From: an uncultured Bacteroidia bacterium | GTDB taxonomy: Bacteria > Bacteroidota > Bacteroidia > NS11-12g > UBA9320 | DNA length: 55,299 nt | Direction of reading: 5' to 3' | NCBI GenBank assembly: GCA_943787465.1 | Contig: CALSMN010000010.1 | Span: 1-55,299, forward strand | Part shown: positions 19,775 to 29,718 of the stretch, piece after piece | Numbering within the stretch: position 1 is the first letter of the stretch | How the letters are laid out: each line of letters starts with the position of its first letter | Program-made: the position numbers and the translations under genes | Notes under the pieces: model-generated | Told to the model about the DNA's origin: nothing | Seen by the model: the letters and a program-made list of their open reading frames with translations, nothing else | Databases searched by the model: none

Positions 19775-20056
19775 ATGGCAAAAAAAACAAAAGAAAATCC
19801 TGAAGAAAAGAGAAAAATGGGTAGGCCTCCTACTAAACCTGTAACCAAAAGGCCTGCATATTATGTAAATGTGAAAGTGAGTAATTCCATGAATTATCAA
19901 ACAACTAATGTGTTGATAAGTAAGGATACTATCCCAGAAATAAAACAGCTAATAGCAAGGTCACCACAAAAAGTGGAGTTGTTAGGCTATTGGAACGGGA
20001 AATCATACGATAGTGTTCCGGAGCTTGAAAAATTTATTAAAGACAGGCAATCATAA
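19775..20056 (+). CDS. Small basic protein with AT-hook-like N-terminus, unknown function
   Basis: 93 aa. The first 30 residues are Lys/Arg-rich with MGRPPTKP, resembling an AT-hook (GRP core). The rest is a compact mixed alpha/beta sequence ending in a charged helix. Own promoter and own terminator (20074-20099) show a monocistronic, probably well-expressed gene. I do not recognise the family; DNA binding is an inference from the motif only. Confidence 0.6.
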   Translation: MAKKTKENPEEKRKMGRPPTKPVTKRPAYYVNVKVSNSMNYQTTNVLISKDTIPEIKQLIARSPQKVELLGYWNGKSYDSVPELEKFIKDRQS

Positions 20057-20073
20057 CCAAATTAATCTAATCA

Positions 20074-20099
20074 AGGGAGTGCTTGCACTCCCTTTTTTT
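20074..20099 (+). terminator. Intrinsic terminator
   Basis: Stem AGGGAGTGC / GCACTCCCT followed at once by seven T. Ends the 19775 gene and insulates the MFS gene 15 bp further on. Confidence 0.9.
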
Positions 20100-20113: not shown

Positions 20114-21286
20114 ATGTTTAAGCGTTATTCTTTACAGTTTTGGTTATTGTGTCTGAGCACGCTTCTTTTTTTCTTTAGTTTTACCTTAATCATACCAGAA
20201 CTACCCGATTATATTTCTTCTCTAGGGGGTAAAGATTACAAGGGATTTACCATAGGATTATTTACAATTTCTGCAGGATTATCTCGTCCTGTAAGTGGAA
20301 AATTAGCAGATTTAATTGGGAGAAAACCAGTGATGCTATTTGGTGGATTAGTATGTGTTATTGTTTCATTGATGTATCCTCTCTTTACCTCAATATTTGG
20401 CTTTTTACTGCTTCGTTTCATTCATGGCATGAGTACCGGATTTATGCCTACAGGAACGGTAGCATATATTGCAGATATTATTCCAAGTGATAGAAGAGGG
20501 CAAGCAATGGGACTAGTTGGTGTGATGAACAATGTTGGTCTAATGTCTGGAAATGCTGTAAGCACCTATATTGTTGAAAGTATTGGTATTCAAAATTTAT
20601 TTCTTTTATCAGGGGGTATTGCTGTTTTATCCGTGTTTATTGTTTTATGGATGAAAGAATCTTTGCCATCTACTCAACCCTTAAAATTAAAATCATTTGC
20701 TATTAAATGGAGTGATTTTTATGATTCAAGAGCTAAAGATCCAGCCGTAATAATGTTACTTAGTGTTACAGTTTTTGGAACAATTATAACTTTGATGCCC
20801 GATTATTCCATGGGTTTAGGGGTCTCTAATAAGGGGCTTTTTATTTCCATCATGACCATTTCAACTGTCCTTGTTAGGTTGTTTACGAGCACCTTATCTG
20901 ACAAGTATGGGCGTCTTGTTAGTTGTCAAATTGGTACATTTTTGTATCTTATAGCTTGCCTTTTACTCACGACAAAGCAATTGCCATTATTTTATTTGTC
21001 TGCAGTGGTCTGTGGTTTTGCTTCAGGTATAAATTCGCCAGCATTATTTGCTTGGACAGTAGATCTGGCTCACGGAAAGCAAGTGGGCAGATTAATTGCA
21101 ACTTTGTTTATATCGCTTGAGGCAGGAATTACTATTGGTGCTTTTGCTAGTGCATTTATTTATGATAATGTATTTTCTAATTTCACCTATGTGTTTATTT
21201 TCCTTGCTTTTATTATAGTTATTTCAATTGGATATCTATTTGGTATAGCTAAGCCAAAGTACACTAAAAAAACTATTAATATCTAA
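20114..21286 (+). CDS. MFS transporter, probable drug or metabolite exporter
   Basis: 390 aa with about 12 hydrophobic segments. Loop 2-3 carries the MFS signature GKLADLIGRKPVM and the second half repeats it as STLSDKYGRLVS. Size and motif fit the 12-segment drug:H+ antiporter group, but the substrate cannot be read from sequence. The ATG at 20110 is out of frame, so 20114 is used. Confidence 0.85.
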   Translation: MFKRYSLQFWLLCLSTLLFFFSFTLIIPELPDYISSLGGKDYKGFTIGLFTISAGLSRPVSGKLADLIGRKPVMLFGGLVCVIVSLMYPLFTSIFGFLLLRFIHGMSTGFMPTGTVAYIADIIPSDRRGQAMGLVGVMNNVGLMSGNAVSTYIVESIGIQNLFLLSGGIAVLSVFIVLWMKESLPSTQPLKLKSFAIKWSDFYDSRAKDPAVIMLLSVTVFGTIITLMPDYSMGLGVSNKGLFISIMTISTVLVRLFTSTLSDKYGRLVSCQIGTFLYLIACLLLTTKQLPLFYLSAVVCGFASGINSPALFAWTVDLAHGKQVGRLIATLFISLEAGITIGAFASAFIYDNVFSNFTYVFIFLAFIIVISIGYLFGIAKPKYTKKTINI

Positions 21287-21402
21287 TTTTTTTTTGATCT
21301 AAAATAGTGTGATGATTCATCCTTTTTGGGTATCACAAATTGGGTCTGTCAATACAGGTTATTTTTTTTTAAATAGTGCTATATATTCTTTATTCAAAAG
21401 AA

Positions 21403-21410
21403 TACATTTG
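21403..21410 (+). promoter_or_regulatory. -7 element TACATTTG of the nqr operon
   Basis: Exact TAnnTTTG match 22 nt before the nqrA ATG at 21433. The longer in-frame extension from 21376 would overlap it, so 21433 is taken as the start. Confidence 0.6.
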
Positions 21411-21432
21411 CACCAAAATTTATAAATTTTTC

Positions 21433-22779
21433 ATGGGAAAAAGCGTAAAAATTAGACGAGGATTGGATATATCGCTAGAAGGCAAACCTTCTACACATAT
21501 TCACACGCTATCCTCACCAACAACATTTGCTGTTAAACCCACCAATTTTAAAGGACTAGTTCCAAAATTAAAAGTAAAACAAGGGGATGAAGTGAAGGCA
21601 GGTGATTGTTTGTTCTCGGACAAAAAAAATGATAAAATTTGTTTTACATCTCCAGTAAGTGGAGAGGTGATTGAGATTGTTCGAGGGAATAGAAGAGCAA
21701 TTATTGAAGTAAAAATACTTGCTGATAGCCAAATTAGCTATAAGACTTTTGACACCACAAATTTTGCATCAAAGTCGCCAGATGATATCAAAGCTATTTT
21801 GTTAGAATCGGGATTGTGGCCATTCATTGTTCAAAGACCATTTGGCACTTTAGCAGATCCTACCATCACTCCAAAATCTATCCATGTATCTGGTTTTGAT
21901 TCATCACCTCTTGCTCCTGATTTAGGAGTTTCTCTTCGTGGGCAAGAATTGTTTATAGAGAAAGGTTTTAAAATACTGGATGCGCTCTGTGAAGGGAATG
22001 TTCATCTAAACCTAAATCCCAAAAAAGACAATACTGTTTTTAAAAATATCACCAACACTACAGTGAATCATTTTCAGGGTCCTCACCCTAGTGGATTAGT
22101 TGGTGTTCAAATTAATAAAGTAGATCCCATCAATAAAGGAGATGTCGTCTGGACCATCAAACCACAGCATGTAGCATTTATAGGTAAACTTTTTGAAACG
22201 GGTCAGCTGGATTTAGAACAAAACATTGTACTTGCTGGCTCCGAAATTAAAGAACCAGCCTATTATACTAGTCGTGTAGGTGCTTGTATTGATAATTTAT
22301 TGGAGAATAATTGCTCGAATGATAATGTACGAGTCATCAGTGGAAATGTTCTAACGGGAGACAAAATCAGTACATCAGGATATCTTGGATTTTATGACAA
22401 TCAAGTAACTGTTATTCCTGAAGGAGATGAATATGAATTGCTTGGTTGGCTTTTGCCTTCATATCCAAGACCGACCATCAGTTCCTCTTTACCTATATCT
22501 AAGTTTTTAAAGAAAAAATTTAAGGTTAATACAAATCCTCATGGTGAACCAAGAGCTTATGTAGTTACAGGACAATATGAAAAAGTAATGCCCATGGACA
22601 TTATGCCTCAACAACTTATAAAAGCCATTATGGCGAAGGATTTGGAGCTTATGGAGAATTTAGGTATCTATGAAGTGATTGAAGAGGATATGGCGCTATG
22701 TGAGTTTGTTTGTACTTCTAAAATAAATGTACAACAAGTGCTATCAGAAGGGTTACAATTAATGGCAGAAGAAAGTTAA
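21433..22779 (+). CDS. nqrA: Na+-translocating NADH:quinone reductase subunit A
   Basis: 448 aa, typical for NqrA. Cytoplasmic-side subunit linked to quinone binding. Starts MGKSVKIRRGLDISLEGKP, contains FVQRPFGTLADP, HFQGPHPSGLVGVQI and LPSYPRP motifs. First gene of nqrABCDEF-apbE. Confidence 0.95.
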   Translation: MGKSVKIRRGLDISLEGKPSTHIHTLSSPTTFAVKPTNFKGLVPKLKVKQGDEVKAGDCLFSDKKNDKICFTSPVSGEVIEIVRGNRRAIIEVKILADSQISYKTFDTTNFASKSPDDIKAILLESGLWPFIVQRPFGTLADPTITPKSIHVSGFDSSPLAPDLGVSLRGQELFIEKGFKILDALCEGNVHLNLNPKKDNTVFKNITNTTVNHFQGPHPSGLVGVQINKVDPINKGDVVWTIKPQHVAFIGKLFETGQLDLEQNIVLAGSEIKEPAYYTSRVGACIDNLLENNCSNDNVRVISGNVLTGDKISTSGYLGFYDNQVTVIPEGDEYELLGWLLPSYPRPTISSSLPISKFLKKKFKVNTNPHGEPRAYVVTGQYEKVMPMDIMPQQLIKAIMAKDLELMENLGIYEVIEEDMALCEFVCTSKINVQQVLSEGLQLMAEES

Positions 22780-22780
22780 T

Positions 22781-23962
22781 ATGAAATTTTTAAGAAATCA
22801 AATTGATAAATTAAAACCTACTTTTTCAGAAGGGGGTAAGTTGAGCTTTTTGCACTCAACTTTTGATGCATTTGAAACTTTTTTATTTGTTCCTAACCAC
22901 ACTACAAAAAATGGTGCTCATATTCGAGATGGAATAGACTTGAAGCGAACCATGTTTACTGTAATTGTTGCAATGCTTCCTGTGTTATTGTTTGGATTAT
23001 GGAACGTGGGTCATCAACAGTCTTTGGCACTTACGGGCACAGATGGAAGTTTATTCAATAACTTTATGATAGGATTAATTCAAACATTACCTATCATTAT
23101 TGTTTCCTATGGTGTAGGTCTGGGTATTGAAATGGCTTTTGCTCAATTTAGAGGACATCCTGTAAATGAGGGCTTCTTGGTGACAGGAATGCTAATACCA
23201 TTGTGTATGCCGCCAGATGTTCCTTTGTGGATGGTAGGGTTAGCGACAGCTTTTTCTGTAGTCATTGGAAAAGAAGTTTTTGGAGGTACAGGAATGAACT
23301 TATTGAACCCAGCGTTGACTGCTCGTATGTTCTTATATATTGGCTATCCAACAAGCATGAGTGGTGATGCGGTATGGACTTATCTTCCTGAGGGTTCTAA
23401 AACGGTAGACGGTTATTCTGGGGCTACCAATCTTGGTGAATTAGCTGCTGCGACTGCAGAGGGTAAATCTTGGAGTGATGATATATTGTCTGCTAGTATT
23501 ATGGATAGTTTTTGGGGTAATATTCAAGGTTCTATTGGCGAAACGTCAGTGGTCGCCTGTTTGATAGGAGCATTTATTTTGATTGCTTCCGGTATTGGTA
23601 GTTGGAAAATTATGCTAAGTACGTTGTTAGGAGGCCTATTTATGGGTTGGATCTTTAATATTTCAGGAGCCACGGGTGCTTATATGGATATGCCTGCTTA
23701 TTATCATTTAATTATTGGTGGATTTATGTTTGGAGCAGTATTTATGGCCACAGATCCAGTTTCTGCGGCCCAAACAGAGAGTGGAAAATGGATATATGGA
23801 TTTCTTATAGGTTTGTTGACTGTTCTCATTCGAGTATTTAACCCAGGATATCCAGAAGGAATTATGATGGCTATACTTCTGATGAATGTGTTTGCCCCAC
23901 TTATAGATTACTATGTAGTTCAGTCTAACATTAATAAAAGATTAAAACGTGTCAATGCTTAA
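22781..23962 (+). CDS. nqrB: Na+-translocating NADH:quinone reductase subunit B
   Basis: 393 aa membrane protein with about ten hydrophobic segments. The covalent FMN attachment motif SGAT is at 213-216 (VDGYSGATNLG), a target of ApbE. Carries riboflavin and one FMN on the Na+ path. One base separates it from nqrA. Confidence 0.95.
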   Translation: MKFLRNQIDKLKPTFSEGGKLSFLHSTFDAFETFLFVPNHTTKNGAHIRDGIDLKRTMFTVIVAMLPVLLFGLWNVGHQQSLALTGTDGSLFNNFMIGLIQTLPIIIVSYGVGLGIEMAFAQFRGHPVNEGFLVTGMLIPLCMPPDVPLWMVGLATAFSVVIGKEVFGGTGMNLLNPALTARMFLYIGYPTSMSGDAVWTYLPEGSKTVDGYSGATNLGELAAATAEGKSWSDDILSASIMDSFWGNIQGSIGETSVVACLIGAFILIASGIGSWKIMLSTLLGGLFMGWIFNISGATGAYMDMPAYYHLIIGGFMFGAVFMATDPVSAAQTESGKWIYGFLIGLLTVLIRVFNPGYPEGIMMAILLMNVFAPLIDYYVVQSNINKRLKRVNA

Positions 23963-24695
23963 TAAAAATAGTAACAATTACATTATTACCTATGCGGTAA
24001 TCATGACCTTGGTTTTTGGCTCTGTACTTGCTGTGGTAGCGATGGTTCTAAAACCAAAGCAGGATATGGAAGTTTTACTAGAAAAACAAAACTTTATATT
24101 AAAAGCGGCTTTGGGAGAGAAAGCAATAGGATCGATGTCTGATAAAGAAATTACAACACTTTATGATGAAACTGTTGTAGCTCAAGTTATTAAGTCAACG
24201 GGTAAAGTGCTTGAAACGGAAGAAGCAAGCGTAAATGTTTTCAAAGAGTATAAAAAACCTAAAGATACCCGTGAATTACCTGTTTATATCATTTATGAAA
24301 ATAAAGACAAATCCAAAATAATTTCCTATGTTTTTCCTGTTTATGGAAAAGGATTATGGGATTTTATTTGGGGATATGTAGCTCTTGAATCAGATTTAGA
24401 AACGATTTCAGGTGTGGTATTTGATCACAAAGGGGAAACCCCTGGATTGGGAGCACGGATTACTGATGCAGAAGTTCAAGGACGTTTCAAGGGAAAGAAA
24501 ATTGTTGATACATTGTCCGGTGAAATGAGCATACCGTACTTTGAAAAAGGGGAAGGAAATGATTATTCAAACAACCCACAACAAGTGGATGGATTGAGTG
24601 GGGCTACCATCACTGCAAAAGGAGTGAGTAGTATGCTAGATAGCTATTTAACTTTGTATAAACCATTTATTTTAGCACAAAAAAATGAGTACTGA
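23955..24695 (+). CDS. nqrC: Na+-translocating NADH:quinone reductase subunit C
   Basis: 246 aa from ATG 23955 (an in-frame GTG at 23949 is possible). One N-terminal membrane segment and a periplasmic FMN-binding domain with the flavinylation motif SGAT near residue 216 (VDGLSGATITAKG). Overlaps nqrB and nqrD by a few bases, so expression is coupled. Confidence 0.94.
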   Translation: MLNKNSNNYIITYAVIMTLVFGSVLAVVAMVLKPKQDMEVLLEKQNFILKAALGEKAIGSMSDKEITTLYDETVVAQVIKSTGKVLETEEASVNVFKEYKKPKDTRELPVYIIYENKDKSKIISYVFPVYGKGLWDFIWGYVALESDLETISGVVFDHKGETPGLGARITDAEVQGRFKGKKIVDTLSGEMSIPYFEKGEGNDYSNNPQQVDGLSGATITAKGVSSMLDSYLTLYKPFILAQKNEY

Positions 24696-25347
24696 AACAT
24701 TAGAAAAAGAAGTTCAAGAGGTTAAGAAACCTGCAGAACCACTTTTTAGTAAAAAAAGAAGAAAGCTTCTTTCCAATCCTTTGGATGAAGATAATCCTAT
24801 AACTATTCAGGTATTAGGAATTTGTTCGGCACTCGCCGTTACAGTTGCAATGAAGCCAACACTAGTTATGGCAATTGCTGTAACAGCAGTACTAGTTTTG
24901 GCCAATGTTGTAATTTCTGCATTGCGAAATACGATACCCAATCGAATTAGAATAATTGTTCAGTTAGTAGTTGTAGCCTCATTAGTCGCTATTGTAGATC
25001 AAGTATTGAAAGCGTATAGCTATGATGTTTGGAAAGAATTGTCGGTATTTATCGGTTTGATTATAACGAATTGTATCGTGATGGGAAGACTAGAAGCATT
25101 TGCTCTAGGAAATAAACCTTGGGATGCTATGTTAGATGGTTTAGGAAATTCATTTGGATATGCTTGGATCATCTTAGCGATTGCTTTTTTTCGAGAACTG
25201 ACTGGTAGTGGAAAATTATTTGGGGTAAAGGTTCTCCCTGATGAATATATGGGAAATGGGGTGATGATGTCACCAGCAGGAGCATGTATTTTATTGGGGG
25301 TGTTGATATGGATAATTAGAAGTAGAAACGGATACGTAGAAGAATAA
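24685..25347 (+). CDS. nqrD: Na+-translocating NADH:quinone reductase subunit D
   Basis: 220 aa, six membrane segments. The two conserved cysteines of the membrane-embedded Fe/FeS site are visible: Cys47 in GICSAL and Cys130 in TNCIVMGRLEAFA. The first ~35 residues form a charged cytoplasmic extension before the core. Confidence 0.94.
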   Translation: MSTETLEKEVQEVKKPAEPLFSKKRRKLLSNPLDEDNPITIQVLGICSALAVTVAMKPTLVMAIAVTAVLVLANVVISALRNTIPNRIRIIVQLVVVASLVAIVDQVLKAYSYDVWKELSVFIGLIITNCIVMGRLEAFALGNKPWDAMLDGLGNSFGYAWIILAIAFFRELTGSGKLFGVKVLPDEYMGNGVMMSPAGACILLGVLIWIIRSRNGYVEE

Positions 25348-25350
25348 ATA

Positions 25351-26064
25351 ATGGAAAATTTACTAAACATATTTGTCAAATCGATTTTTATCGATAACAT
25401 GATTTTTGCTTACTTCTTAGGAATGTGTTCCTATTTGGCAGTTTCTAAAAAATATAAGACAGCTGCAGGACTTGGTATGGCTGTAATTTTTGTATTAGGA
25501 ATTACAATACCTTTAAACTGGTTGGCATACAATTATCTTTTAAAGGAAGGAGCTCTGACATGGATAAGTGAAGATTTTGCTTCCATAGATTTAGAAGTAT
25601 TAAAGTTCATCGTATTCATTGCAATTGTAGCTGCATTTGTTCAACTTACAGAAATGGCTGTAGAAAAATTTTCTCCGTCATTGTACAATTCATTGGGGAT
25701 ATTTTTACCCTTGATAGCTGTAAATTGCTCAATTCTAGGTGGGGCTTTATTTTTACCTACTCGAGATTATGAATTTGTTGAAGCCGTTACCTTTGGTTTA
25801 GGATCGGGTATTGGATGGTTTTTAGCTGTTGTTTCATTAGCGGCAATTCGAGAAAAAATGGCCTATGCTGACGTGCCTAAGCCACTAAGAGGTCTTGGAA
25901 TTACATTCATTATTGTAGGTCTAATGGCTTTTGGATTTATGAGTTTTGGTGGATTTGAACTCCCTTTTAAAAATAAAGAACAACAAGAACAAGCTGAAGC
26001 AGAAAAAGTAGCTCAATCAGAAGAACAAAATCTACCAATTTCAGCCGTAAATAACTCAAAATAA
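25351..26064 (+). CDS. nqrE: Na+-translocating NADH:quinone reductase subunit E
   Basis: 237 aa. Core membrane subunit related to NqrD in inverted topology; cysteines Cys26 (GMCSYLAV) and Cys126 (VNCSILGG) complete the metal site. A C-terminal extension of about 30 residues rich in Glu, Gln and Lys goes beyond the ~200-aa proteobacterial protein. Confidence 0.94.
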
Positions 26065-26066
26065 AA

Positions 26067-27389
26067 ATGATTTTAGCGATTAACACAACAGTCATAATTT
26101 TAGCTGCGGCTGTATTTACATCCATTATTATACTTTTGGTATCCATGCTAATGGTTGCTGCAAAAAGACTTGTAAATTCTGGTGCAGTTAAGTTAACTAT
26201 AAATGGAGAACGAGAAGTTGAGGTAGCAGCAGGTGGTACTCTCCTTAATGTTTTACAAGATCAAAAACTATTTTTACCTTCAGCATGTGGAGGAGGAGGT
26301 ACTTGTGCCATGTGTAAATGTCAAGTACATGAAGGTGGTGGGGACATCTTACCTACAGAAACGGGTCACATTAAACGTCGAGAACAAAAAGATAATTGGA
26401 GACTTGCATGTCAAGTTAAAGTAAAAGAGGATATGGTAGTTGAGGTTCCAGAAGAAGTTTTTGGAATCAAAAAATGGGAATGTGAGGTGGTCTCTAATTA
26501 CAATGTCGCTTCATTTATTAAAGAGTTTGTAGTTAAATTACCTGAAGGTGAAAACTTGGATTTTGAAGCAGGCGGGTACATCCAAGTAGATGTTCCAAAA
26601 ACGACAGTTCACTTTAAAGATATTGATATCACAGCACATCCGGAGTTAGTAGAATTGGGCAGAGATCCAATGGATTTTAAATCGGAGTGGGATAAATACG
26701 GTTTGTGGGATTTAAAAATGGAAAATGATGAACCCATTTTTAGAGCTTATTCTATGGCAAATCATCCAGCTGAAGGGAATATTGTTATGCTGAACATCCG
26801 TATAGCAACTCCACCATGGGATCGTAAAAATAACAAATGGATGGATGTTAATCCTGGTATCTGTTCTTCTTTTGTATTTGGTTGCAAACCAGGGGATAAA
26901 GTGACTATTTCTGGACCTTATGGTGAATTTTTTATTAAAGAAACAGATGCGGAAATGCTATACATTGGGGGTGGTGCAGGTATGGCTCCTATGCGATCTC
27001 ATTTATTTCACTTATTCCATACTTTGAAAACGGGTCGTAAGGTTACGTATTGGTATGGAGGTCGTTCGAAAAGAGAATTATTCTATTTAGATCATTTTAA
27101 TAAAATAGCTTCAGAATTTCCCAATTTCAAATTTTTTATTGTGTTATCCGACGCCATGCCAGAAGATAATTGGACTCCCAAAACGGATATCAATGATGAA
27201 AATGGTGATGGTTTCTCAGGATTTGTTCATCAAGCAGTGATTGACCAATATTTGAGCAAACATGAAGCTCCTGAAGATATAGAATTTTATTTCTGTGGTC
27301 CTCCTTTAATGAACCAAGCTGTTCTTAAAATGTGTGATGATTGGGGTGTTCCGCCAGAAAATGTTGCTTTTGACGATTTTGGAGGATAA
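26067..27389 (+). CDS. nqrF: Na+-translocating NADH:quinone reductase subunit F
   Basis: 440 aa. Membrane anchor (about 5-30), 2Fe-2S ferredoxin domain with Cys74, Cys80, Cys83 ([11 protein letters not shown]) and Cys115, an FAD domain (RAYSMANHP) and an NADH-binding domain ([22 protein letters not shown]), ending in the conserved DDFGG. Electron entry point of the complex. Confidence 0.95.
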
Positions 27390-27398
27390 TTTTACCCG

Positions 27399-28430
27399 AT
27401 GAATTGTATGCAAATACTCAAAAAAGGCAGAATATTCTGCCTTTTTTTTGTTTTGATAGGTGTATCAAGTTGTACCAAAGATCAGGAAATAATCCCACAA
27501 CAAATAAGTGGTAATGCACTAGGTACGACCTACCATATTTCATATATTGGAAATGAAATTAAACACATCGAGGTAGCTATTGATTCCATTATAGATGCTA
27601 TTAATCATGGTCTATCTACCTACCAGCATAACTCATTGATTTCTTGTTTTAATTCCAATAATACATCACTGTGGGAAGACTCCAATGAGTATCGTTATTA
27701 TGAAAGTGATTTGAAACACTTCACATTCATGGTGAATCTATCAAAACAGATTTCGGTGAGCACAGATGGTGCTTTTGATCCAAGCTCGGCCTGTTTGTTT
27801 GAGGAATATAACCGTGCTAAAAAAAATCAAATAAAAATGGATGATCAAATTATTCAATCGTGCCTCGGTCATCAAGGGTTAGATAAAATAAGATACGATT
27901 CCGTGGGATATCCTATCAAATCTGATTCATTAATGCAACTCAATTTTAATGCCATAGCTAAAGGGTATTTAGTTGATGTGCTGGGTGTCTATTTTGATCA
28001 TAAAAAGATAGAAAATTATTTAATTGAGGTAGGTGGGGAGATGATAGCAAAGGGAGAAAACGGTTCAGGTTTACCTTGGACTGTGGGCATTACAACCCCT
28101 ATTCCAAATGCTGATCCTACTCAATTTTTTCATGTTCTACCTCTAAAGAATAAAGCAATAGCTACCAGTGGGAATTATCAAAATTTCTATAAAATAGACG
28201 GTTTGGTAGTTGGACATACTATGGACCCCAGATCTGGCCGTCCGGTAATGACCAATTTAAGAAGTGCAAGTATTTTTCATAAAAGCTGTGCAGTTGCAGA
28301 TGCTTATGCTACAGCATGTATGACTCTAGGTTTGGAAGAATCAATCGCTTTAATCAAACAGGATACGTCATTATCTGCTTATTTTATTTTTGAAAAAGAG
28401 CATGAACTCATGGGGCAATTTGTGGAGTAG
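27399..28430 (+). CDS. apbE: ApbE-family FAD:protein FMN transferase (lipoprotein)
   Basis: 343 aa. Attaches FMN to the Thr of the SGAT motifs in NqrB and NqrC; its place right after nqrF fits. N-terminal lipoprotein signal with lipobox GVSSC (Cys25), so it acts at the periplasmic face. Family motifs: FDPSSACLF, NFNAIAKGYLVD, EVGGEM, HTMDPRSGRP, and SCAVADAYATACMTLG. The codons of the signal peptide contain a terminator-like hairpin listed separately. An in-frame ATG at 27408 is an alternative start. Confidence 0.93.
   Translation: MNCMQILKKGRIFCLFFVLIGVSSCTKDQEIIPQQISGNALGTTYHISYIGNEIKHIEVAIDSIIDAINHGLSTYQHNSLISCFNSNNTSLWEDSNEYRYYESDLKHFTFMVNLSKQISVSTDGAFDPSSACLFEEYNRAKKNQIKMDDQIIQSCLGHQGLDKIRYDSVGYPIKSDSLMQLNFNAIAKGYLVDVLGVYFDHKKIENYLIEVGGEMIAKGENGSGLPWTVGITTPIPNADPTQFFHVLPLKNKAIATSGNYQNFYKIDGLVVGHTMDPRSGRPVMTNLRSASIFHKSCAVADAYATACMTLGLEESIALIKQDTSLSAYFIFEKEHELMGQFVE
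27420..27449 (+). terminator. Terminator-like hairpin inside the apbE signal-peptide codons
   Basis: Perfect inverted repeat AAGGCAGAATATTCTGCCTT flanked by A6 before and eight T after. By sequence it is a standard intrinsic terminator or attenuator, 31 bp after the nqrF stop, yet it is read as KKGRIFCLFF in apbE. Probably lowers transcription from nqr into apbE unless apbE translation or another factor prevents folding. Confidence 0.75.
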
Positions 28431-28470
28431 TATCCTATAATTCCAAGGATTATTTTTACTTTGTATACGG

Positions 28471-29718
28471 ATGAATGATAGAACACAACGTGTAGCTGGC
28501 AAATTGATGCGCTACGTTCAGGTAGATACACAAAGTGACCCTGAAAGCAACACATTTCCAAGTACTGAAAAACAAAAAAACTTAAGTAGGCTATTGGTGG
28601 AAGAACTTTTAGCTATGGGTATTCAGGATGCGATGATGGATGAGTGGGGGTATGTATTTGCAACCATACCTAGCAATTCATCCAAGGATAATATTCCCAC
28701 GGTTTGTTTCTGTTCGCATGTTGATACAGCGCCAGATTGTAGTGGAGCTCACGTGAAACCCATTTTACATCGAAAATATCAAGGTCAGGATCTGGTTTTG
28801 CCCGATGATAGGACACAAGTAATTCGTCTGAAAGATCATCCGTACTTAAAAGAGCGGATTGGTGATGATATCATCACCGCCAGCGGTAAAACATTACTTG
28901 GGGCTGATGATAAAGCCGGTGTAGCTATTATCATGCAACTCGCTGAAGAATTAATTCATCATTCAAACGTATTGCATGGCAATGTCCGGATATTATTTAC
29001 ACCGGATGAAGAAGTAGGGAGAGGAGTAGATCACCTGGATATGAAAAAATTAAATGCAGATGTAGGATATACCTTGGATGGTGGACCAAGAGGATCGTTA
29101 GAGGGCGATACGTTTTCTGCTAATTCCATGACCATTCGGTTTAAGGGGGTTAGTGCTCATCCAGGATATGCAAAAGGAAAAATGGTAAATGCTGTAAAAG
29201 TGATGAGTCATTTTTTGGAGCAATTACCCAAGGACCATTTTTCGCCCGAGACTACTCAAGGTAACGAGGGATTTGTCCATCCATACAATTTAAAAGGTCA
29301 ATTAGAGGAATCGAGTGTCGATTTTTTAATACGGGATTTTACAACAGAGCAGTTGATTCAACACCAAGAGCGTCTAATTACCCTATGTGAGCAGACCTGT
29401 AGTCAGTATCCAGGGGCAAGTTATACTACAGAAATACACGAACAGTACCGCAACATGCGCGAGGTACTGGATCAGCACCCCTACATAGAAGCAAATGCTC
29501 TATTGGCCATGAAAAGAATTGGAATAGAGCCAAGAAGAGATTGGGTACGAGGAGGAACCGATGGTTCTCGCTTGTCATTCATGGGACTTCCATGTCCCAA
29601 TTTATTTACAGGGGAAATGGCCATTCATAGCAAGCACGAGTATGTGAGTGTGCAAGATATGGAGGCAGCAGTTAAAACCTGTATAGAAATACTTAAAGTG
29701 TATGAGGAGGGTAGCTAG
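28471..29718 (+). CDS. pepT: Peptidase T (tripeptide aminopeptidase)
   Basis: 415 aa M20-family zinc aminopeptidase. Metal and catalytic residues in SHVDTAPD (His, Asp), LLGADDKAG (bridging Asp), FTPDEEVGRGVD (catalytic Glu pair) and the late SKHEY His. A dimerisation domain (from about 205) begins SANSMTIRFKGVSAHPG. Cytoplasmic; releases N-terminal residues from tripeptides. Confidence 0.94.
   Translation: MNDRTQRVAGKLMRYVQVDTQSDPESNTFPSTEKQKNLSRLLVEELLAMGIQDAMMDEWGYVFATIPSNSSKDNIPTVCFCSHVDTAPDCSGAHVKPILHRKYQGQDLVLPDDRTQVIRLKDHPYLKERIGDDIITASGKTLLGADDKAGVAIIMQLAEELIHHSNVLHGNVRILFTPDEEVGRGVDHLDMKKLNADVGYTLDGGPRGSLEGDTFSANSMTIRFKGVSAHPGYAKGKMVNAVKVMSHFLEQLPKDHFSPETTQGNEGFVHPYNLKGQLEESSVDFLIRDFTTEQLIQHQERLITLCEQTCSQYPGASYTTEIHEQYRNMREVLDQHPYIEANALLAMKRIGIEPRRDWVRGGTDGSRLSFMGLPCPNLFTGEMAIHSKHEYVSVQDMEAAVKTCIEILKVYEEGS

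Follow-up and report, generated by a model that had tools for sequence, protein, structure and literature searches.

The window analysed here is a whole stretch of 55,299 nucleotides, corresponding to contig 10 (G000:C10) of a 1.97 Mb Bacteroidia genome. Its forward strand carries a Na+-NQR gene cluster, in which five upstream genes (21376–26064, with ORFs at 21376–22779, 22781–23962, 23949–24695, 24685–25347, and 25351–26064), which we take from gene order to be nqrA to nqrE, are followed by the last structural gene, nqrF (26067–27389; Pfam domains Fer2, FAD_binding_6, and NAD_binding_1), with the 3ʹ end GGA GGA TAA. On the same strand, separated from nqrF by 9 nt, lies apbE (27399–28430), which encodes a lipoprotein FAD:protein FMN transferase of 343 aa, with the ApbE domain at residues 41–329 (Pfam PF02424, E 2.1e-63), and which has one significant copy in this genome. 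The final two Gly codons of nqrF form a Shine–Dalgarno-like GGAGGA (27381–27386, forward strand) before the apbE start, where it would presumably act as such. GGAGG or GGCGG is also retained at the nqrF end in many relatives, because of the DFGG terminus of the protein. The start codons of apbE, in the window and in its relatives, are predicted ones.

The codons of the lipoprotein signal peptide MNCMQILKKGRIFCLFFVLIGVSSC occupy 27399–27473 (forward strand), including the lipobox Cys25 at 27471, which was recognized by inspection. Within these codons, the sequence AAAAAAGGCAGAATATTCTGCCTTTTTT (27420–27447) is a perfect 28-nt palindrome, and as RNA it can form a 12-bp stem with a 4-nt loop. Hairpin scanning, folding, and conservation mark it as a putative terminator hairpin on the forward strand, AAAAAAGGCAGA-ATAT-TCTGCCTTTTTT, that begins 30 nt past the nqrF stop and 21 nt past the apbE start and occupies apbE codons 8–17 (KKGRIFCLFF), between the start codon and the lipobox Cys. 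A U-tract of eight T's (27442–27449, forward strand), coded as (C)TT TTT TTT for Leu-Phe-Phe, overlaps the end of the palindrome, and six of these T's are able to pair with the A run. An earlier note, made from the sequence of this window, had described a perfect 20-bp inverted repeat followed by T8 in the signal codons of apbE. The repeat is real, but its size is that of a 28-nt palindrome rather than 20 bp; the T run is exactly T8, and the terminator anatomy does double as signal peptide codons, with the 12-bp stem and T8 both in codons 8–17.

The 81-nt RNA from 27390 to 27470 folded at −21.2 kcal/mol, compared to −11.2 kcal/mol (sd 2.66) for shuffled sequences (z = −3.76), and none of the 200 shuffles matched it; the 16-nt hairpin core had an energy of −8.2 kcal/mol. 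This single fold contained the terminator stem and a weak outer helix only, with no competing antiterminator. The first common start codon past the U-tract is a TTG at 27453, which leaves six residues before the lipobox Cys, and no start codon downstream of the stem that would leave a usable signal peptide was found in apbE of the window. With about 7 residues between the U-tract and the Cys, the signal peptide must therefore be read through the stem.

Rarity of the hairpin in the window and the genome

When Watson–Crick stems of at least 9 bp followed by at least 6 T in 8 positions were searched for, two sites were found in the window, at 20073 and 27420, and no other hairpin there that runs into a T-tract is as long as the latter. 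In 200 dinucleotide shuffles, stems followed by seven or eight T's in 8 positions were never longer than 10 bp, and a stem of 12 bp appeared in none. The second strongest terminator of the window (20073–20094) is an ordinary intergenic one, with a 9-bp perfect stem and a T-rich tail between an ORF ending at 20056 and another starting at 20114. A loose terminator scan returned 8 sites against 8.1 in shuffles, which is no overall excess, and so the weak sites are meaningless and the significance lies in the length of the stem at 27420. An Rfam scan of 26900–28600 on both strands gave six matches, all below the gathering scores (E 0.019–0.75); these were set aside as generic hairpin-plus-T matches, several of them on the other strand.

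The pattern AAGGCAGN(4–8)CTGCCTTTTTT was unique in the source genome, with one forward and one reverse match that are the same palindrome. We surveyed a 455 kb sample of this genome, consisting of the window and 20 stretches of 20 kb. As a loose search gave 269 sites, mostly long imperfect hairpins in genes or antisense to them, a strict search was used instead, which yielded 20 canonical terminators, two of them within an ATG ORF on the same strand. After inspection, the apbE hairpin was the only one of the 20 inside a gene start. The other candidate, L203:8384, was rejected, as a TTG start past its stem, at L203:8438, gives a normal N terminus. At that site (L203:8384–8413; G000:C1, about 48384), 4 nt past a superoxide-dismutase-like gene, a perfect hairpin runs into a T-tract, and the frame of the next gene, which we take to be SPOR-domain-like, is open through the stem. 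We regard it as a terminator of the usual kind that leaves the frame open; it may represent a state preceding the apbE type of overlap.

Relatives in the genus and family

A scan of genome contigs with the single protein matched one relative, Bacteroidia bacterium JADHMR010000023.1. In a search of 19 genomes of the genus, 17 had an ApbE match, and the hairpin was embedded in apbE in 14 of the 15 genomes with a visible nqrF–apbE junction or apbE 5ʹ end. In these 14 genomes the stems are in frame as KGxxxCLFF or QGxxxCLFF, and the full-length ApbE proteins of genus members with the hairpin are only 51%–59% identical to that of the window. In G003, where the contig (L012) starts just before the stem, the tract is T7 rather than T8, with TTC for the last Phe. 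The sole exception in the genus was G007 (L015/L027), in which apbE lies about 240 nt downstream of nqrF and has an unrelated signal peptide; a different terminator is still present after nqrF.

In the family, nqrF had a full-length match in 23 of the 31 genomes searched. None of the six genomes of genus g3 (G020–G025) had such a match, suggesting that Na+-NQR was lost there. Outside the genus of the window, 9 of the 10 family members with nqrF had an embedded hairpin; in the tenth, G027, apbE is adjacent to nqrF and no acceptable embedded hairpin was found.

Selection on the stem

The codons of the stem were compared in an alignment of 16 species, which took in all genus g1 and g6 members with an nqrF locus and 900 nt downstream except G007 (not embedded) and L028 (apbE incomplete); G003 lies outside this set. 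Of the 106 columns with near-invariant, degenerate ApbE residues, six lie within the stem (K, G, C, L, F, and F). Each of these used a single codon, compared to 0 of the 100 columns elsewhere in ApbE, where Gly columns, for example, typically used three or four codons. The T7 and TTC of G003 mean that this codon invariance is not absolute.

We also randomized synonymous codons according to each gene's own usage, with 300 trials per gene and L118 left out. For apbE of the window, the observed terminator score was reached in 0 of 300 recodings. Of the 20 genes tested in family f1, 19 gave no more than 3 such recodings in 300, the other being L038 (22 of 300). The 8 genes of f6 gave 0–9 of 300, and the 10 genes of f10, which is GC-rich, gave 3–86 of 300, so the test is weak there; the tails of high-GC f10 sequences are weaker as well, such as TTTTCG and TATTCG.

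Pairing was analyzed in 20 alignable stems of the family, 18 of them distinct, with one arm slid and with 500 shuffles as controls. Of the pairing cells, 94.4% were paired, compared to 39%–72% with one arm slid, and changes on both sides occurred at 3 of the 10 stem pairs, a number reached in 4 of the 500 shuffles. One paired change, GGCAG/CTGCC to GGCGG/CCGCC, turns the peptide from KGRxxC to KGGVNR, and the GGGCAG/CTGCCC version of the stem gives the peptides GSVYCPF and GSLFCPF. In f10, CCCCGC/GCGGGG is exchanged for CCCTGC/GCAGGG, with the peptide changing from KPRVVRG to KPCLVQG. Whole hairpins have been replaced, too: genus g8 of f1 has an unrelated one at the same place (EVVSLWVATF), and f6 and f10 have other unrelated ones there (KPFGLLLRAF, NPFDLVQRDF, KLHHWSFSF, and GKSRRARGF).

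The T8 was present in all 17 listed genus g1 and g6 sequences (G003 being outside this set), while the opposite A run varied, which argues for a forward-strand terminator and not a palindrome in DNA. A DNA-binding palindrome was rejected for this reason and because whole stems are replaced. As read from these comparisons, selection maintains both the codons and the pairs of the stem, at the expense of the signal residues. The earlier note had asked whether the stem is conserved beyond the need of the protein, and the single-codon columns (6/6 vs. 0/100), the paired changes, and the recoding test speak in favor of this. Relatives with the peptide kept and the stem lost, which would have spoken against it, were not seen; it is the signal residues that change and the stem that stays, and the non-overlapped genus-mate G007 retains a terminator after nqrF.

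Survey of the class

Searches with nqrF gave matches in 120 of 296 genomes of the class Bacteroidia, 21 of 65 of the order, 12 of 38 of f10, and 31 of 33 of f6. Among the junction regions read, the set analyzed comprised 74 distinct nqrF loci with apbE detected within 900 nt downstream; outside it were six duplicates and L028, whose contig ends in apbE and which has the stem. A junction was called embedded when it had a hairpin of −7 kcal/mol or lower, with at least 5 T of 9, and any ATG, GTG, or TTG past the hairpin was fewer than 15 codons away from the lipobox Cys. On this basis, 38 junctions were embedded (20 in f1, 10 in f10, and 8 in f6), 23 had a terminator before the apbE start, and none was detected in 13, with two rows reassigned by hand: L118 from embedded to none, for its 13-nt loop and poor tail, and L137 from an undecided call to before the start. 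The 13 junctions with an adjacent apbE and no detected terminator, that of G027 in the same family among them, indicate that the device is dispensable.

Mapped onto an ApbE tree, the embedded label must change 8 times, and well-supported branches force at least 6 of these changes. By this tree, the junction has seen repeated gains or losses of the embedded state, at least 6–8 in number. In genus g67 of f6, for example, the hairpin lies mostly before the start, and L196–L198 carry a similar TCCCT(T/C)TG-type hairpin inside the gene. A terminator-like site was also found within 100 nt in 68 of the 90 nqrF loci without a nearby apbE. A terminator after nqrF is thus usual, and the moving part is the apbE start. 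The earliest in-frame start lies between −11 and +23 nt of the nqrF stop in 36 of the 38 embedded junctions, and in some lineages the stem begins 15–25 nt past that stop. Among the embedded junctions, L035, L190, L191, L197, and L198 have a non-ATG start overlapping nqrF, and no common start was found upstream of the stem in L110, so these starts are less sure. At L066, L070, L074, and L175, the terminator lies upstream of apbE without overlapping it, yet the apbE frame extends across it into nqrF with no stop codon, and a few changes could be enough to turn them into embedded junctions.

Discussion

We propose, with a probability of about 0.72, that the apbE hairpin is a constitutive, partial intrinsic (Rho-independent) terminator that holds apbE expression far below that of nqrA–F. 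The gene would be written over the intrinsic terminator at the end of nqrA–F, with the hairpin and U-tract serving as codons for the n- and h-regions of the signal peptide. As RNA polymerase passes nqrF, the hairpin would form and transcription would mostly stop on the U-tract, giving abundant nqrA–F mRNA, and the minority that reads through would be the only mRNAs with the whole of apbE. Since the start codon of apbE comes before the stem, polymerase has to pass the stem to make any full-length apbE mRNA, and a promoter located after the stem could not supply one. The flavin transferase, a catalyst, would then be scarce beside the pump subunits that it modifies. NqrB and NqrC receive their FMN from ApbE, which NQR maturation requires (PMC12052999). 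Its catalytic role is our ground for expecting that little of it is needed. Both termination and its efficiency are predictions from sequence, as is the low apbE:nqr ratio, which would follow most naturally from the hairpin.

Work on E. coli offers a similar geometry. According to PMC4824070, a terminator can function within the first 100 bp of an ORF; at distances above 27 nt past a stop codon, efficiency is maximal and the terminating ribosome does not repress it; and for a terminator placed 30 bp into an ORF, translation costs only about 10% of efficiency. The apbE case, with distances of 30 nt from the stop and 21 nt from the start, resembles this arrangement, in another phylum.

These distances bear on an alternative in which the hairpin is a translation-controlled attenuator, so that ribosomes finishing nqrF would re-initiate at apbE, open the stem, and let polymerase through, making apbE output dependent on translation or coupling conditions. 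The closeness of the apbE start to the nqrF stop in 36 of the 38 embedded junctions fits this idea, as does the apbE ORF running through the stem, and pil1 of Streptococcus gallolyticus works in this way with a leader ORF (PMC3894217). Against it, a stem that far past the nqrF stop would escape repression by the E. coli measure, the loss to translation within an ORF was small there (PMC4824070), and the one 81-nt fold held no competing antiterminator. We consider such an attenuator unlikely, with some chance of being right. The relief by ribosomes covering the stem that the earlier note suggested thus finds no support in the E. coli geometry of PMC4824070 (more than 27 nt past the stop; about 10% loss); it is possible, considering the lineages with the stem 15–25 nt past the stop and that Bacteroidota may differ from E. 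coli.

It is quite improbable that the stem instead protects or processes the 3ʹ end of the nqrA–F mRNA with little termination. A stable stem after nqrF is indeed widespread, including at loci without a nearby apbE (68 of 90), but stability alone would not need a T8 that is strict in 17 sequences while the A run varies. We give still less credit to a plain operon end, with apbE not usefully expressed from the nqr promoter, a promoter inside nqrF, and the stem as an insulator. Promoter scans were uninformative in the window (47 sites vs. 62.4 expected), which leaves room for such a promoter, but its transcript must also read through the stem, as the start codon is upstream. That KGRxxCLFF arose by chance in complementary codons, as a by-product of codon preference in signal peptides, is hardly credible given the codon invariance, the paired residue changes, the replaced stems, and the 0 of 300 recodings for the window apbE, even though the abundance of F and L (TTT and CTT) in signal peptides makes T-tracts easy to obtain, and f10 recodings often give similar scores.

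Under the partial terminator that we favor, terminated nqr mRNAs entered by ribosomes at the apbE start would be non-stop messages, as the analogy with E. coli suggests. There, the terminator 30 bp into an ORF, a short one, halved upstream expression, for which the authors invoke non-stop mRNA decay (PMC4824070). A further, rather doubtful extension is that, beside a terminator dictating the signal residues through repeated overprinting of the nqr operon end by the apbE start in Bacteroidia, entry into apbE on non-stop nqr mRNAs would feed back via trans-translation on nqr mRNA lifetime and tie Na+-NQR output to flavin transferase synthesis; the support for this feedback is that upstream halving in PMC4824070, by analogy only.

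An internal terminator sets operon stoichiometry in the E. coli rpsU-dnaG-rpoD operon. Internal intrinsic terminators likewise set operon ratios in the ABC importers of cellulolytic Clostridia (PMC9045158), where, as in nqr–apbE, the terminator stands between genes of one operon with the bulk gene upstream. The importer terminators described there are intergenic, whereas the apbE hairpin is inside signal peptide codons and constrains their residues. In brfA/arfA, too, the terminator is in an ORF and terminated transcripts lack a stop codon, but there it sits close to the 3ʹ end and the shortened protein is functional, brfA being made from non-stop mRNA (PMC6881298). Unlike this, the apbE hairpin is about 20–30 nt past the start and before the ApbE domain, so that the terminated product would be a signal fragment only. 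The leader attenuators of S. gallolyticus pil1 (PMC3894217) and E. coli pyrBI (mentioned in PMC4824070) share with apbE a translated ORF that runs into a terminator. At apbE, in contrast, there is no separate leader ORF, the overlapping ORF being the structural gene itself, and no sign of a stalled ribosome or, in the one 81-nt fold, of an antiterminator. We found no earlier description of an nqrF–apbE terminator in signal codons in the open-licence literature.

A terminator found in coding sequence is usually put down to chance, or to noise that ribosomes suppress, whereas the apbE hairpin is under selection and alters the residues of its host protein. The nqrF–apbE junction offers a natural, testable example of an RNA structure that dictates protein sequence. 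It would also be a case of one operon making much pump and little maturase, and of cells tolerating a built-in source of non-stop mRNA. The conservation of the ApbE signal peptide in these bacteria need not, as a warning, reflect protein function.
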